From a virus: DNA of 64,000 nucleotides. The position numbers and the translations under genes are program-made. Of the stretch, positions 7,530 through 56,891 are shown piece after piece (the first letter of the stretch is position 1; each line of letters starts with the position of its first letter). The stretch spans positions 1 to 64,000 of IMG/VR virus record IMGVR_UViG_3300033146_000601. One strand, given 5' to 3'. The notes beneath the pieces were generated by a model. The model was not told the origin of the DNA. It worked only from the letters and a program-made list of their open reading frames with translations, and did not search any database.

Positions 7530-7565
7530 AAAAGTCTCCTAAAAAATAAATTTTATAATAATATA

Positions 7566-48205: not shown

Positions 48206-48994
48206 TTAAAGTGATGATAATGAACAATATGCATCATGTTGGTGAATAGATTCTTCATTACTTACTAAAACTTTATACCAATTTACTTTATCTTTAATTG
48301 TATGAGTTAAATCATCAAATAATTCTCTAACCATATCTTCAACAAATTTAGGATTCTCATATGCTTGTTCAGTAACAAATTTTTCATCAACCCGTTTTAA
48401 CACACTGTATATTGGGCAACTTGCATTTCTTTCAGAAATTTCAATCAAATCTTCAATATAAATAAATTCAAAATCTTTAATTTGACATTGAATTTTTATT
48501 TTTGATCTTTGATTGTGAGCCCCATATTTACTTATTTCTTTAGAACATGGACATAAACTAGTTGCTGTAGTTTCAATAGTCATTATAAAACATGAAGTAT
48601 TCCCATTTGAATTTGTAACATCAAATGTAACATTATAATAAACTATTCCGATTTCTTCTGAAACCGGTGCAGATTTATTAATAAAATATGGAAATTTATA
48701 TATTATCTGACATCGATCTGCTTCTGAAATGTTTTTAATATTTTCAGCAATATCATTAATTTTTTTAAGACTTAATTTGGTTGATAATTGTTTTTGTAAT
48801 TGCTGAGGCAATCTAGACATGTGTATACCTTTTTGATTACCAGCTAAATCTACAAACACATCAATGTCTGCAACAGTATGTTGATCTTCATTATTGTTTT
48901 TTTTAACAATAAAAATAGGTAATTTTAAATTTCTAATACCAACCGTTTTAATTGGAATATTTAATTTGGATGATCCATTTTGGATGTCTAACAT
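48206..48994 (-). CDS. folE2: GTP cyclohydrolase IB
   Basis: 262 residues from the ATG at 48994, which overlaps the upstream stop as TAATG and has AAGAGGAAATG before it. MSRLPQQLQ and CPCSKEISKYGAHNQRSKIK, with the catalytic Cys and Glu-His residues, are FolE2 signatures, and the family size is normal. It converts GTP to dihydroneopterin triphosphate, first step of the 7-deazaguanine route. Being zinc-independent, it works when metal is scarce. Confidence 0.92.
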   Translation of the reverse strand: MLDIQNGSSKLNIPIKTVGIRNLKLPIFIVKKNNNEDQHTVADIDVFVDLAGNQKGIHMSRLPQQLQKQLSTKLSLKKINDIAENIKNISEADRCQIIYKFPYFINKSAPVSEEIGIVYYNVTFDVTNSNGNTSCFIMTIETTATSLCPCSKEISKYGAHNQRSKIKIQCQIKDFEFIYIEDLIEISERNASCPIYSVLKRVDEKFVTEQAYENPKFVEDMVRELFDDLTHTIKDKVNWYKVLVSNEESIHQHDAYCSLSSL

Positions 48995-49197
48995 TAACAT
49001 TTCCTCTTTTTTTTCTTAGTTATATAAATGTTATTAATCGCACTTCGAAACCGCAAATAAGTATGATGTTGTATTAACTGCGGGTAATTAGTATCAAATT
49101 CTGAACATACTCGACCACATAAATATTTGCAAAAATTCGCATATTCTTCTGGGTAATGATAGTTTAATATTTCTAAATCAATATTGTCTTGATACAT
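48994..49197 (-). CDS. Hypothetical small protein coupled to folE2
   Basis: 67 residues, HHTYLRFRSAINNIYITKKKK, with three Cys. Its stop overlaps the folE2 start. No family recognised, but co-translation suggests a link to the pathway. Confidence 0.55.
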   Translation of the reverse strand: MYQDNIDLEILNYHYPEEYANFCKYLCGRVCSEFDTNYPQLIQHHTYLRFRSAINNIYITKKKKRKC

Positions 49198-49229: not shown

Positions 49230-49271
49230 AAAAAAATCTCTCGTAGAGACGAGATTTTTTAGCAAGTAGCT
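49230..49271. repeat. Direct repeat copy 1 with hairpin
   Basis: AAAATCTCTCGTAGAGACGA, then GATTTTTTAGCAAGTAGCT. It contains AAATCTCGTCTCT-type inverted pairing, a hairpin that may end transcription. Copy 2 is at 49709-49750. Confidence 0.7.
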
Positions 49272-49650
49272 ATAATTCCTTTAATCCTTGAACTACATGC
49301 AATGCCAAGTGCATGTATTCTTTAAGTTGTTTTGAAGGCACCTCTTCGTTTATGGCTTGCAATGTATCACATCCTGAACATGATCCATATAATATTTTTA
49401 CAGTCCAATAATCAGTTGGTTGATAGCCTTTTTCAGCTATCACATATACTAACGACCCCTGATAATCTCCGTCATCTATTTCATGAATTCGACGCGGATC
49501 AGGATTATGATCACCATATTCATCATCATCAGTAATAGTCTCAATGATCATCTTAACCAATGAGTTATAATTTGCAACCCCCTCTTTTGTAATTTTTTTT
49601 TCTAATTTATGTTTATTTTCCATGAACCGATCAATAAATAATTGAATCAT
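49270..49650 (-). CDS. Conserved hypothetical protein (SCSGCDTLQ type)
   Basis: 126 residues. Opens IQLFIDRFMENKHKLEKK, then ETITDDDEYGD, DDGDYQGSLVYVIAEKGYQP, and YGSCSGCDTLQAI with MHLALHVVQGLKEL at the end. This order recurs in proteins of many phages and bacteria, but I know of no function. GC-richer than surroundings. Flanked by two copies of a 42-nt repeat, like an inserted cassette. Confidence 0.65.
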   Translation of the reverse strand: MIQLFIDRFMENKHKLEKKITKEGVANYNSLVKMIIETITDDDEYGDHNPDPRRIHEIDDGDYQGSLVYVIAEKGYQPTDYWTVKILYGSCSGCDTLQAINEEVPSKQLKEYMHLALHVVQGLKEL

Positions 49651-49698
49651 AAAAATTCTCCTTTTAAAAAATAATAAAACTATCCATTGGTCTTATAA

Positions 49699-49706
49699 GT
49701 TTCTAT
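49699..49706 (-). promoter_or_regulatory. Weak promoter motif
   Basis: - strand ATAGAAAC (one mismatch), upstream of the 49650 gene. Confidence 0.35.
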
Positions 49707-49708
49707 AT

Positions 49709-49750
49709 AAAAAAATCTCTCGTAGAGACGAGATTTTTTAGCAAGCAGCT
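49709..49750. repeat. Direct repeat copy 2 with hairpin
   Basis: AAAATCTCTCGTAGAGACGA, then GATTTTTTAGCAAGCAGCT, differing from copy 1 by one base in the last ten. Brackets the 49270-49650 gene. Confidence 0.7.
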
Positions 49751-49932
49751 CTTACGTTTGAATTTTACGTCGGGTTTTAGCTGCTACCAACCGACGGAAT
49801 GTCTTTTGAGACGTTACTCTCTAAGGGATTCAATCCTTAAATTTTGTTGGGTTTATTCCCAATGCATTTTTAACCAACTATTACGTTGTTGGCAGGCTTA
49901 TATGCATAAACCTTTTGATACGCTTGAAATCT
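49751..49932 (-). pseudogene. Gene-poor, GC-rich stretch, possible decayed ORF
   Basis: No intact ORF with SD. On the - strand fragments such as KPANNVIVG, VKNALGINPTKF and SQKTFRRLVAAKTRRKIQT appear in succeeding frames separated by stops and frame changes, the pattern of a decayed small gene. A + strand frame through it has no SD. Otherwise I see nothing. Confidence 0.3.
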
Positions 49933-50223
49933 TTACCCGTGGGCACAGATCTCAAGGACGTTTCCTCTGCCATCATCATAAACCACTTTACGGGTTTTAT
50001 GACCGATGACATGGAAAACGATCATATAACACCAAACGGCCATAGGGCCGGTTAGTGTTACTTGATCGTAATCGACTTCAAGATTATCAGCATTTCTGCC
50101 AATAATCTCCTTGGCTATCCCCGGAGGGGTAACCAAGTTAAGTCGACCGCCAACGGTCTCAATTTCACAATCATGATACAATGTATCATTTGTGAGACTG
50201 AGATCGATAACTTTCAATCTCAT
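49933..50223 (-). CDS. Csx3-like protein, putative cyclic-oligoadenylate ring nuclease
   Basis: 96 residues. The C-terminal half LTGPMAVWCYMIVFHVIGHK then VVYDDGRGNVLEICAHG matches the order of Csx3 (Crn3): GR-PiWLYA-LvHelhp...vavyDPRlGgaVVv-sH, including H, D and R residues near the Csx3 active site. The N-terminal part ends in P-Y/D strands like Csx3. Stand-alone Csx3 cleaves cyclic tetra-adenylate, the type III CRISPR signal. A phage copy would be an anti-CRISPR. GC-rich, with its own promoter. Confidence 0.5.
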   Translation of the reverse strand: MRLKVIDLSLTNDTLYHDCEIETVGGRLNLVTPPGIAKEIIGRNADNLEVDYDQVTLTGPMAVWCYMIVFHVIGHKTRKVVYDDGRGNVLEICAHG

Positions 50224-50258
50224 ACAAATCTCCTTTTCAAAGATTGCATATTAATATA

Positions 50259-50284
50259 ATTTCTATCTGAACTTCGAGAATAAA
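50259..50284 (-). promoter_or_regulatory. Candidate promoter
   Basis: - strand TTATTC, 11 nt, ATAGAAAT, 36 nt before the Csx3-like gene. Confidence 0.6.
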
Positions 50285-50289
50285 AAAAA

Positions 50290-50313
50290 TAAAAGAAGTC
50301 GTGAAGACCTTCT
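50290..50313 (-). terminator. Probable terminator
   Basis: Stem AAAGAAG / CTTCTTT around TCGTGAAGAC after the gene ending at 50334, followed on the - strand by TTTTTTATTC. Confidence 0.55.
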
Positions 50314-50333
50314 TTGGTGTTGGTGAGCTTGGA

Positions 50334-50549
50334 CTACGTCCAAGAACTCACACCTGTAAATTCTCGCCCAAGGGCGAGAATTTTGTTAGCCATCCGGATG
50401 AACCATTCTCCGTTTTCGTCTTCCAAAGAATCCGAATTAGACACCAAAACCGACTTGGTAGTCGGTTCTAATATCACAACTGTTTCACCGTCGTCAATGA
50501 TTGTCAATGTAAACTGTTGTCCATTTGACAATGTTACTATTTCTTTCAT
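50334..50549 (-). CDS. Small GC-rich hypothetical protein
   Basis: 71 residues, SD AGGAGAATAAG 4 nt before ATG (strong). MKEIVTLSNGQQFTLTIIDD... is beta-rich, ending GREFTGVSSWT. The + strand frame over it has no SD and is rejected. Single-gene cassette with promoter (50598) and terminator. No family. Confidence 0.6.
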   Translation of the reverse strand: MKEIVTLSNGQQFTLTIIDDGETVVILEPTTKSVLVSNSDSLEDENGEWFIRMANKILALGREFTGVSSWT

Positions 50550-50597
50550 CTTATTCTCCTAATTATGGATAGACGATATTGCCTATCCACTTATATA

Positions 50598-50623
50598 ATT
50601 TCTATCTGAAATGTATGAATATT
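50598..50623 (-). promoter_or_regulatory. Candidate promoter
   Basis: - strand AATATTC, 11 nt, ATAGAAAT, TATATAA, 49 nt before the ATG at 50549. Consensus match. Confidence 0.65.
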
Positions 50624-51425: not shown

Positions 51426-51869
51426 TTAAAAATTCAATATAAATCCGGCAGAGTTTTTATCGGTTTCCCAAATTTCAATTTTTATCTGAGAAAGATTTAA
51501 AATTTTAGATTCAAACATATCAGCAAAATCATAGCATAGTTCTTCGGCCATATTTTCAGCTGTTGGATTTTTATCATATACTAAATATTTTTGATTATTA
51601 TCTTTTAAAAATTTCAATAATCGTTTATCATTATGATTTACAATAGTTCCATGATCATAATATGTATCTAAATAAGTTTGAAACTTTTTCAATTCACCAA
51701 AATCGATAATCATACCAGTTTCAAGTAAATTATCAGATATAACCGAAGATTTTAATTTATATGAATGACCATGTAAACTTGAACAAGGACTATCATATGG
51801 CAGGGTTAATCTATGACTACAATCAAATTTATACATTTTAGTAATAAATCTTTGTGTATTTTTCTCCAT
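51426..51869 (-). CDS. queD: 6-carboxytetrahydropterin synthase
   Basis: 147 residues, QueD length. FDCSHRL has the first zinc His, CSSLHGHSYKL gives the catalytic Cys and two more zinc His. DTYYDHGTIVN and NPTAENMAEEL and IEIWET complete the family set. Converts dihydroneopterin triphosphate to 6-carboxytetrahydropterin. Second step of the preQ0 route. SD AAGGAAAAACG. Confidence 0.92.
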   Translation of the reverse strand: MEKNTQRFITKMYKFDCSHRLTLPYDSPCSSLHGHSYKLKSSVISDNLLETGMIIDFGELKKFQTYLDTYYDHGTIVNHNDKRLLKFLKDNNQKYLVYDKNPTAENMAEELCYDFADMFESKILNLSQIKIEIWETDKNSAGFILNF

Positions 51870-51883
51870 ACTACGTTTTTCCT

Positions 51884-53974
51884 TTAAAAATTATTATTAA
51901 TATATTCTTCTCCAGCAACTTGTGATAATTTCAAAACTAGTCGTCCAGTCAATGTAGTACTTGCAGCACATAATCTATTACTATAAATGAAACTCGATAA
52001 TCCACTTAACCCATATGATGAATTAACATTAACTTTACTTGATTTTTGTCGAGAATCATAAAAATTATATTCTGGACTTCCAACTGAATAAGTGTCTCGC
52101 TTAGTTTTATATTGTTTTCTAAATTCTAATTTATTTGTAATAAATTTATTTAATATGCCTGTATATTTTTCGTGTGTATAAAATAATGCACCAGATAAAT
52201 TAAAACTAATATTCTCTTGATCTAAATAATGAGCTAATGAATTTTTTGGAATATTTACTATTCGAATATTCATTTGATTTACATTTTCAACTATATAAAG
52301 ATCATGTTCAATATCTTCATTATTAACAATATATCTATACGCATCAATATGATGGTCTTCTAATGTTTGTATTTCTGTAAATAAATGTAATAATGGCAAC
52401 AATACAGTTTTTAATATAATATATTCATTTAATGTATTCGGTGCCATTATATTTTTCATTGAAGTTTTACTATTTAATAATTGATTTACTAAATAATAAA
52501 ACATATAAAACATATATTGTTTATAATTAGTTTTATTTTGTGGACTAATATAATCTACTTTCTTTTCAATTTTTGAAAATATATTATTTTTAATACTTTG
52601 AGAAAATGTAGCGTTTGTATTTGTAATTGTTATTAAATATTTTAAAAATTTATATGTATTAGATTGTAATACATATCCAAACAAGGAATCAAACGAAATG
52701 TTACACATACTCATACAAGATGGATATAATGCTGTGGCATCACTATCAACAATAATTACATCATCTTCCATTGTTATTATATCATTATATCCATTACTAA
52801 TATAAGCTCCTGGAAATTTAGACATAACAGATCTAAATGTTTTATTATCAATATTAGTAACTGTCCATTTTTTTATACTTTTAGTTTTTGGAGGATCAAT
52901 TTGTTCAATATCAATTTGATTTATTGAATTTTCTAATTCAGCATGAACTCCATATCTCATATATTGTGATAATTCTTGTATTTCATAAGAAAACATTGCT
53001 GAAAATAATGCTGATACTCCACGAATACTATTAGATAATGAACATTTCATATCTCGTCGAAGTGTGTTATGAAAATCAATATGTTTCAATTTGTCATTTA
53101 ATCTAACTGTAAGAATAACATCAATTATATTATATTTAAAATAATTTAATGGATCATTTAAATAAAATGTATCCAAGTTTGAATTGCCAGATCCTTTATA
53201 ATCTAACTTTTTAAGATTAAGTTCAACATTAGATATATAATCTAATGAATAACTAGGTTGTTTTTTTCCATAATTTAATCCACCTTCATCACGAGGACAA
53301 TATAAATGTTTAATATCTAATATTGGATATTCAGGTATATTAATAATAACTTTATTTCCAAACTTACGTAATTTAATTATTCGTAATTTAGACATTGTAT
53401 TTGCTACTTTTTGAGCATCATTTTCATATAATATAAATAACCGATTATAAATATATGGAATATCATATCCATCTGAATAATATCCAGAAATAGTTACTGG
53501 ATCAATTTCATGAATTTTAGACCAACAATTTTCAATTAATAATAATTCATCAGTATAAAACTCAATTTCAATTTGTTCGTTTTCTGGTATATATTTATGT
53601 TCAACTAAATCAATTTTAAATTTATTAATTAATTCTGATATATTAATATCATTTGAAATCAAATGTGAAATTTGAGGTAAAATTAATAAATATGCATAAT
53701 AAGTTTTATTTTTTGAATTATATATTGTTATTGCCGATATTGGTGATATTGCATTAGATGGTAAAAATTGACCTGTATGATTACTAAACACTTCAATATC
53801 AATAAATATTGTTGATATATTTTGATCTGTATTTATAGTATCATGATTATTTTTTTTATAATGTTGAATTGAATAATATTCTGGAACATCAATATCAACA
53901 TTATAAAATTGTGTATAATTTAAATTATTATTTTTTAATTGCATTATAACATCGTCAAATTCTATAGTTTGCAA
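51884..53974 (-). CDS. DNA polymerase family B, N-terminal fragment
   Basis: 696 residues from TTG (53974, AAGGAG before it). TIFIDIEVF is exonuclease motif I, NIIDVILTVRLNDK exonuclease motif III. IIVDSDATALYPSCMSM (polymerase motif A, DxxALYPS) and SKVNVNSSYGLSG (motif B, K-x-x-x-N-S-x-Y-G) follow. It ends soon after motif B, and motif C is in a different gene, 56016-56891. Proofreading exonuclease and part of the polymerase domain are here. Must act with the other piece. Confidence 0.9.
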   Translation of the reverse strand: MQTIEFDDVIMQLKNNNLNYTQFYNVDIDVPEYYSIQHYKKNNHDTINTDQNISTIFIDIEVFSNHTGQFLPSNAISPISAITIYNSKNKTYYAYLLILPQISHLISNDINISELINKFKIDLVEHKYIPENEQIEIEFYTDELLLIENCWSKIHEIDPVTISGYYSDGYDIPYIYNRLFILYENDAQKVANTMSKLRIIKLRKFGNKVIINIPEYPILDIKHLYCPRDEGGLNYGKKQPSYSLDYISNVELNLKKLDYKGSGNSNLDTFYLNDPLNYFKYNIIDVILTVRLNDKLKHIDFHNTLRRDMKCSLSNSIRGVSALFSAMFSYEIQELSQYMRYGVHAELENSINQIDIEQIDPPKTKSIKKWTVTNIDNKTFRSVMSKFPGAYISNGYNDIITMEDDVIIVDSDATALYPSCMSMCNISFDSLFGYVLQSNTYKFLKYLITITNTNATFSQSIKNNIFSKIEKKVDYISPQNKTNYKQYMFYMFYYLVNQLLNSKTSMKNIMAPNTLNEYIILKTVLLPLLHLFTEIQTLEDHHIDAYRYIVNNEDIEHDLYIVENVNQMNIRIVNIPKNSLAHYLDQENISFNLSGALFYTHEKYTGILNKFITNKLEFRKQYKTKRDTYSVGSPEYNFYDSRQKSSKVNVNSSYGLSGLSSFIYSNRLCAASTTLTGRLVLKLSQVAGEEYINNNF

Positions 53975-56015: not shown

Positions 56016-56891
56016 CTATTTTTTATATTTTTGTTTAACTAAATCAACAATTCTTCGACAAGTAGTTGTGTATATTTTTTTTGACCATTGTTCTTCATCA
56101 TTAATCTTAATATTATGAACTTTAAATTTTTCTTTCAATAATAAATTATCATAAACAAACGGAACAACTATCGTTTTGCATTTTAAAAAATGAAGTTTCT
56201 TTAAAATTTGACTTTGAGAAAAATCGCAATAAATTTGTTTACCTGCACTTCCAGGAGCAAATATTTCGTCATTCATTATATAATTATATAATTTCATAGA
56301 TTCAATAATTTGTGGATTTTTCCCAAATTTAACATTATTGGATATATTCATAAAATCAAAAGACTTTATATCTTTTAAAAATTGATTGTGTGATTCCGTA
56401 ATAGCTTTACTAATCATATTAAATTTATTAATTGATGGTATTTCATTATTTAAAATAATATCTTCTATCATAATTTTTAATAATTTTTTAGTTAATTGCG
56501 GAGCATCAGCTTTCACAATTTGGATTCCAGTGTGATTTACTTTTGGTATTTCTAAAACATTACCTTCTTTAACAACAAGTTTATAACTATATTGTTTTTT
56601 TACATCTAAAAACATTATATCACTCATTAATAACTCTGTTTTAAAAAAAATCTTATTATGTTCTTTTTTTATATTACATCTCGGAAGCAAAATATCATCA
56701 ATATGTTTGACTAAATTATCATTAATATTTTGTGAATGGTGAATAGCAATTTCCCAAAGATCTTTTACATTTTTTTCCTTAGGAGATTTAACGGGAAACT
56801 TAAGAAAAATACTATCTGTATCAGAATATAATATATGTTTTAATACTCTATATCCCTCATTTTCTTTATAAAAATCTTTTTTTAATTCCAT
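56016..56891 (-). CDS. DNA polymerase family B, C-terminal fragment (palm motif C, thumb)
   Basis: 291 residues. HILYSDTDSIFLKFP is motif C with both catalytic Asp. FKTELLMSDIMFLDVKKQYS then YKLV matches the KKRY-type K motif, followed by thumb-like helices. It begins just where the 696-residue fragment stops, so the two genes together make one polymerase. In transcription order this fragment comes first, and at least six genes lie between them. Confidence 0.88.
   Translation of the reverse strand: MELKKDFYKENEGYRVLKHILYSDTDSIFLKFPVKSPKEKNVKDLWEIAIHHSQNINDNLVKHIDDILLPRCNIKKEHNKIFFKTELLMSDIMFLDVKKQYSYKLVVKEGNVLEIPKVNHTGIQIVKADAPQLTKKLLKIMIEDIILNNEIPSINKFNMISKAITESHNQFLKDIKSFDFMNISNNVKFGKNPQIIESMKLYNYIMNDEIFAPGSAGKQIYCDFSQSQILKKLHFLKCKTIVVPFVYDNLLLKEKFKVHNIKINDEEQWSKKIYTTTCRRIVDLVKQKYKK

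Follow-up and report, generated by a model that had tools for sequence, protein, structure and literature searches.

A divergent phage subfamily of Csx3/Crn3 ring nucleases with a probable role against type III CRISPR

A 96-residue protein carried by a phage belongs, as a divergent member, to the Csx3/Crn3 ring-nuclease superfamily. With its relatives on other viral contigs it forms a new subfamily, found in phages, within a known class of enzymes. In bacteria, Csx3 serves to turn off the alarm signal of type III CRISPR. The window (the whole stretch of DNA that was analyzed) takes in 64 kb of a linear virus record 65,620 bases long, itself a fragment. We put at about two in three the probability that the protein is a phage-borne, stand-alone ring nuclease of the Crn3/Csx3 fold that degrades cyclic tetra-adenylate (cA4) and so defeats type III CRISPR. 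Homology, the predicted fold, and the counterparts of catalytic residues make both cA4 degradation and anti-CRISPR action plausible. In such a scheme, the phage would carry the csx3-like gene on a small accessory cassette and express it from the gene's own promoter, and dimers would stack head to tail with cA4 sandwiched between them, as in AfCsx3 of Archaeoglobus fulgidus. One face of the dimer would present G59, D84, and R86 (the D face) and the other the metal-binding residues H71, H75, and H95 (the His face). A metal-dependent cut would convert the cA4 ring to linear di-adenylates and, with cA4 lost, the Cas10 alarm would fall silent and effectors such as Csx1 would stay off.

The preliminary description of this DNA had assigned the protein to Csx3 (Crn3), and profile searching gave a significant match: the window protein matches the PADLOC Csx3 model PDLC01040 with an E-value of 2.9e-4, and Csx3 models are its only PADLOC matches. 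For five of five relatives, too, every PADLOC match is to a Csx3 model (best E 1.8e-7). No Csx3 match to the window protein emerged from Pfam, NCBIfam, PHROGs, or phmmer searches. The curated cut-offs of Pfam PF09620 and NCBIfam Csx3, which are detection thresholds rather than properties of a protein, are not reached, and the protein is therefore filed as a divergent Csx3/Crn3 subfamily; PF09620 is matched weakly by three of the five relatives (best E 0.011). When the profile of the phage family was compared with a canonical Csx3 profile built from nine sequences (hhalign), the score was 30.7 (E 7e-5, 84 columns), against a maximum of 21.2 in 300 column-shuffled controls of the same pair. Given the PADLOC match of the window protein, the agreement of all five relatives, and a real profile pair that outscores every one of the 300 shuffles, the likeness to Csx3 exceeds chance. 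It is the family, the PADLOC model, and the fold that carry the case for Csx3 identity. Chance or convergence might be read into the weak single-sequence signal (Pfam, NCBIfam, phmmer) and into the score of the window protein alone against a small home-made profile (9.5 bits, inside the shuffled range), but with the profile, the shuffle control, the fold, and the active-site residues in agreement, we consider that explanation extremely unlikely.

The AlphaFold2 model of the window protein (pLDDT 88, pTM 0.76) has a predicted fold like that of AfCsx3 (AF1864; PDB 3WZG, 3WZI, 6VJG, 6YUD), a protein of similar size. Foldseek ranks 1–13 are all AfCsx3, with probabilities of 0.80–0.99 and E-values of only about 0.02. 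AfCsx3 also makes up the best five rows from VIA, where the Z of 7.2 (rmsd 1.9 across 72 residues) lies within the range reachable by unrelated folds. Alone, the VIA Z and the Foldseek E are middling; what counts is their agreement with the sequence evidence. As far as a predicted model can indicate, the fold appears to be that of Csx3. A Foldseek search of viral models (BFVD) returned no good match.

AfCsx3 cannot do without H60 or D69, loses much of its activity in the R71A and H80A variants, and has an absolutely conserved H57; moreover, immunity that depends on cA4 is weaker in E. coli when Csx3 is present (PMC7371418). The catalytic residues H57, H60, D69, R71, and H80 have the phage counterparts H71, H75, D84, R86, and H95. 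MAFFT L-INS-i and HMMER place one extra phage residue between the H57 and H60 positions, after which H75, D84, R86, and H95 are in register with AfCsx3 (R86 is K in two members). H95 is invariant, although it was absent from every search pattern. The preliminary description had recognized the Csx3 order of residues and had made its assignment depend on an active-site His/Asp pair. All of the counterparts are there, the pair itself (H75 and D84) included, in a register slightly different from the naive one: H60 corresponds to H75 after the insertion, and D69 is likely D84. With the profile match and AfCsx3 as the top fold match, the assignment to Csx3/Crn3 was right, and the role that the description proposed against type III CRISPR is plausible. 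From the alignments, which leave the D83/D84 register with a one-residue ambiguity, D69 of AfCsx3 is most likely D84 and not D83. The register that equates D69 with D83 was set aside: D83, which follows the conserved Tyr, varies (four relatives have N there), D84 does not vary, and the extra residue is put between the histidines by HMMER, MAFFT, and hhalign alike.

Other features depart from AfCsx3, with which the phage form shares only ~16%–20% identity. The cA4-contacting S44-G45-R46 of AfCsx3 becomes T58-G59-P60, so that G is retained and R46 is replaced by P, and I49 is retained as V. The phage form has HxxxH where AfCsx3 has HxxH and DGR where AfCsx3 has DPR, and it is phage-carried, without an adjoining Cas10. 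Its N-terminal half is different, with conserved family motifs (GR-L-TP and VGRN) not seen in canonical Csx3, and the window protein, which ends with H95-G96, lacks the extension that canonical Csx3 has at its C-terminus. The main doubts about the ring-nuclease reading come from this missing extension, the loss of R46, the extra residue, and the N-terminal motifs specific to the phage family, which could signify a changed ligand or a slow enzyme. One possibility is a sponge, which would bind cyclic oligoadenylate and sequester the signal without cutting it at a useful rate. The change of R46 to P, the variability at D83, and the short C-terminus would suit such a protein, and Csx15, a slow ring nuclease but a good binder, provides a precedent (PMC13148439). 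However, a pure sponge needs none of the five catalytic counterparts, metal-face histidines included, that are kept here at 49%–58% identity, and we regard this explanation as unlikely.

Features that set the phage form apart from AfCsx3 recur in a cellular branch of Csx3 (GP...HxxxH...DPK...AHG). Bacteroidota Csx3 proteins with HxxxH and GP match Nostoc proteins annotated as Csx3 and Synechocystis slr7080, a putative Csx3/Crn3 fused to AAA+ (PMC9676260). The GP (and thus P at the R46 position), the HxxxH, and a near-terminal His-G are common to this slr7080-type branch and the phage form, and their profiles align without gaps from G59 to H75. In contrast, the phage tryptophan is missing from the branch, which has DPK where the phage form has DGR. 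Its members are cellular and sometimes part of a larger protein, and in several genomes Cas10 is found on the same contig (about 3 kb away in G027). In a Saprospiraceae genome, canonical Csx3 likewise shares its contig with a Cas10 match. The one Bacteroidota match of the phage profile, a 500-aa protein with a Csx3-like C-terminus, was discarded as it is not a stand-alone relative.

The phage protein may instead be an active phosphodiesterase of the Csx3 fold with another target, such as the type III or CBASS signals cA3 and cA6, some mixed cyclic nucleotide, or the ends of RNA. The GR-L-TP and VGRN motifs leave room for this, as does the original report of AfCsx3 as an RNA deadenylase (PMC7371418). 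We hold it to be possible but not probable, because cellular Csx3 adjoins Cas10 in several genomes and characterized Crn3 is reported to be cA4-specific (PMC13148439; PMC12830947). Destruction of cA4, our preferred reading, is a role proposed for the phage protein in common with the viral ring nuclease AcrIII-1/Crn2 (DUF1874), whose fold is unrelated; the window protein has no Pfam match to DUF1874. Crn4b, Csx16, Csx20, and AcrIII-2 are also virus-borne (or proposed) ring nucleases, and belong to other folds or families.

The family was recovered from viral contigs by sequence patterns. Of 11 matches to a degenerate DNA motif written for the presumed active site, four were real, and an alignment of the members found in this way then retrieved further ones. 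Chance matches (L003, L005–L007, L009, L010, L013, L015–L017) were discarded upon translation. It should be noted that the motif fixed W64, H71, H75, Y82, D83, G85, and R86, so identity at these positions among the four members that it retrieved is by construction; the remaining members were found via different peptide patterns, namely LTGP..W, YDDGR, or one from the N-terminus. The phage family comprises twelve proteins on eleven contigs: the window protein, nine at 49%–58% identity, the stand-alone L068, and one tandem paralog. The last of these is the second copy of a tandem pair in L046 (G007:C1:29640-30417); it is ~30% identical to the others and has R at the H57 position.

The family contigs range from 23% to 65% GC and, except for one closely related pair, share almost none of their other genes. 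Most carry phage hallmarks (terminase, helicases, primases, DNA polymerase, ligase). The type III CRISPR locus context that is usual for cellular Csx3, but not required of a viral one, was not seen for the phage members: Cas10 was not found in 17 viral records (that of the window and 16 others, possibly fragments). In the preferred reading, the gene has spread among unrelated phages on its small accessory cassette. Alternatively, the gene might have no counter-defense role and serve nucleotide or RNA metabolism, or phage-borne defense against rival phages. This would accord with the genes that flank the island in the window, which are FolE2-type GTP cyclohydrolase and QueD-like genes (48206–49000, 51426–51869) of the 7-deazaguanine pathway, perhaps for DNA modification. 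However, a patchy presence in unrelated phages, across such a GC range and in changing neighborhoods, is typical of counter-defense cargo, and with Cas10 not found in these viral records we judge a role outside counter-defense to be decidedly unlikely.

When the window protein and its relatives were compared by tblastn with sequences of cultured phages and of plasmids, no match emerged, and neither divergent nor canonical Csx3 matched among 50,697 cultured-phage records. AcrIII-1, Csx20, and Csx16 were found when 28,114 phage genomes were surveyed in a published study, whose list includes no phage Crn3 (PMC12409355). Separately, seven further viral contigs (L070–L076) carry canonical Csx3 whose active site is complete, with neighbors that include terminase (L070), primase (L071), tape-measure (L072), and an RNA polymerase subunit (L076); the copy in L074 is on a 272-kb contig.

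Ring nucleases are an already known route by which phages get past type III CRISPR, and a phage Crn3 subfamily would give viruses a further class of such enzymes, one that is metal-dependent and forms oligomers. We give even odds to a broader proposal, that Crn3 is a weapon in general use among phages and has been overlooked in surveys of cultured phages, with at least two lineages (divergent, GP/HxxxH/DGR, and canonical, GRxPIW/HxxH/DPR) in unrelated phages, some of them jumbo-type with an RNA polymerase of their own, and that the divergent lineage may have shifted its ligand specificity via the N-terminal half. Phage Crn3 would fit the action of type III systems against nucleus-forming jumbo phages, to judge by the title of a report (Mayo-Munoz 2022, cited in PMC13148439). 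The natural active-site variants (HxxxH, DGR, and GP) are material for probing the mechanism of AfCsx3.

Within the window, the protein is encoded by an ORF with an ATG start (Table 1), just 5′ of which is AAGGAGATTTGT, which resembles a ribosome-binding site. The stretches VWCYMIVFHV and YDDGRGNVLEICAHG, quoted in the preliminary description, are both present in the ORF. Its remarks on the surroundings of the gene also held: that the gene is GC-richer than they are, has its own promoter, and sits in a small accessory island. The GC content of the gene is 43.3%, versus 25.3% for the window, and stretches of 291 nt reach this level in only 0.46% of cases; the GC-rich patch around it spans 49681–50621. 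The promoter-like motif upstream of the gene, ATAGAAATTATA, has seven copies in the window (at 7562, 23384, 36509, 36557, 46628, 50255, and 50594) versus 0.23 expected, a frequency reached in 0 of 100 shuffles. Most copies lie some tens of bases 5′ of genes. Two neighboring ORFs accompany the csx3-like gene in the island.

Table 1. Features of the csx3-like gene and its island (window coordinates)
Feature	Position	Strand	Basis or remark
csx3-like gene, divergent phage Crn3	49933..50223	−	ORF, PADLOC Csx3, alignments, AF2 model, fold match
Phage promoter-like motif ATAGAAATTATA	50255..50266	−	32 nt upstream of the csx3-like ATG
Terminator-like hairpin and T-run, 3′ end of csx3-like transcript	49709..49750	−	
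GC-rich 3′ untranslated stretch after csx3-like gene	49740..49932	−	Folds better than its shuffles
Island neighbor ORF, 71 aa	50334..50549	−	Own promoter motif copy at 50594–50605
Island neighbor ORF, 126 aa, phrog_12588 (unknown function)	49270..49650	−	

The untranslated stretch downstream from the gene folds with a z of −3.2 relative to its shuffles without the terminator and −4.4 with it, and it matches no Rfam family; tRNA and Rfam searches found nothing. A second terminator-like hairpin (49230–49271) is 98% identical to that in Table 1 (42 nt each). The paired hairpins flank the 126-aa ORF, an arrangement that suggests a gene cassette.

The preliminary description had placed the gene in a phage, and this was sound. 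The window encodes a tail sheath, RNA polymerase beta-type subunits, helicases, a ligase, a RecJ-like exonuclease, and a family B DNA polymerase. Such a gene set suggests a large tailed phage that has a multi-subunit RNA polymerase of its own. The family B DNA polymerase seems to be split between two minus-strand ORFs (51884–53974 and 56016–56891), with motifs A and B in one and motif C (YSDTDS) in the other. The motif C ORF is upstream on the same strand, and thus the halves are in reversed gene order.
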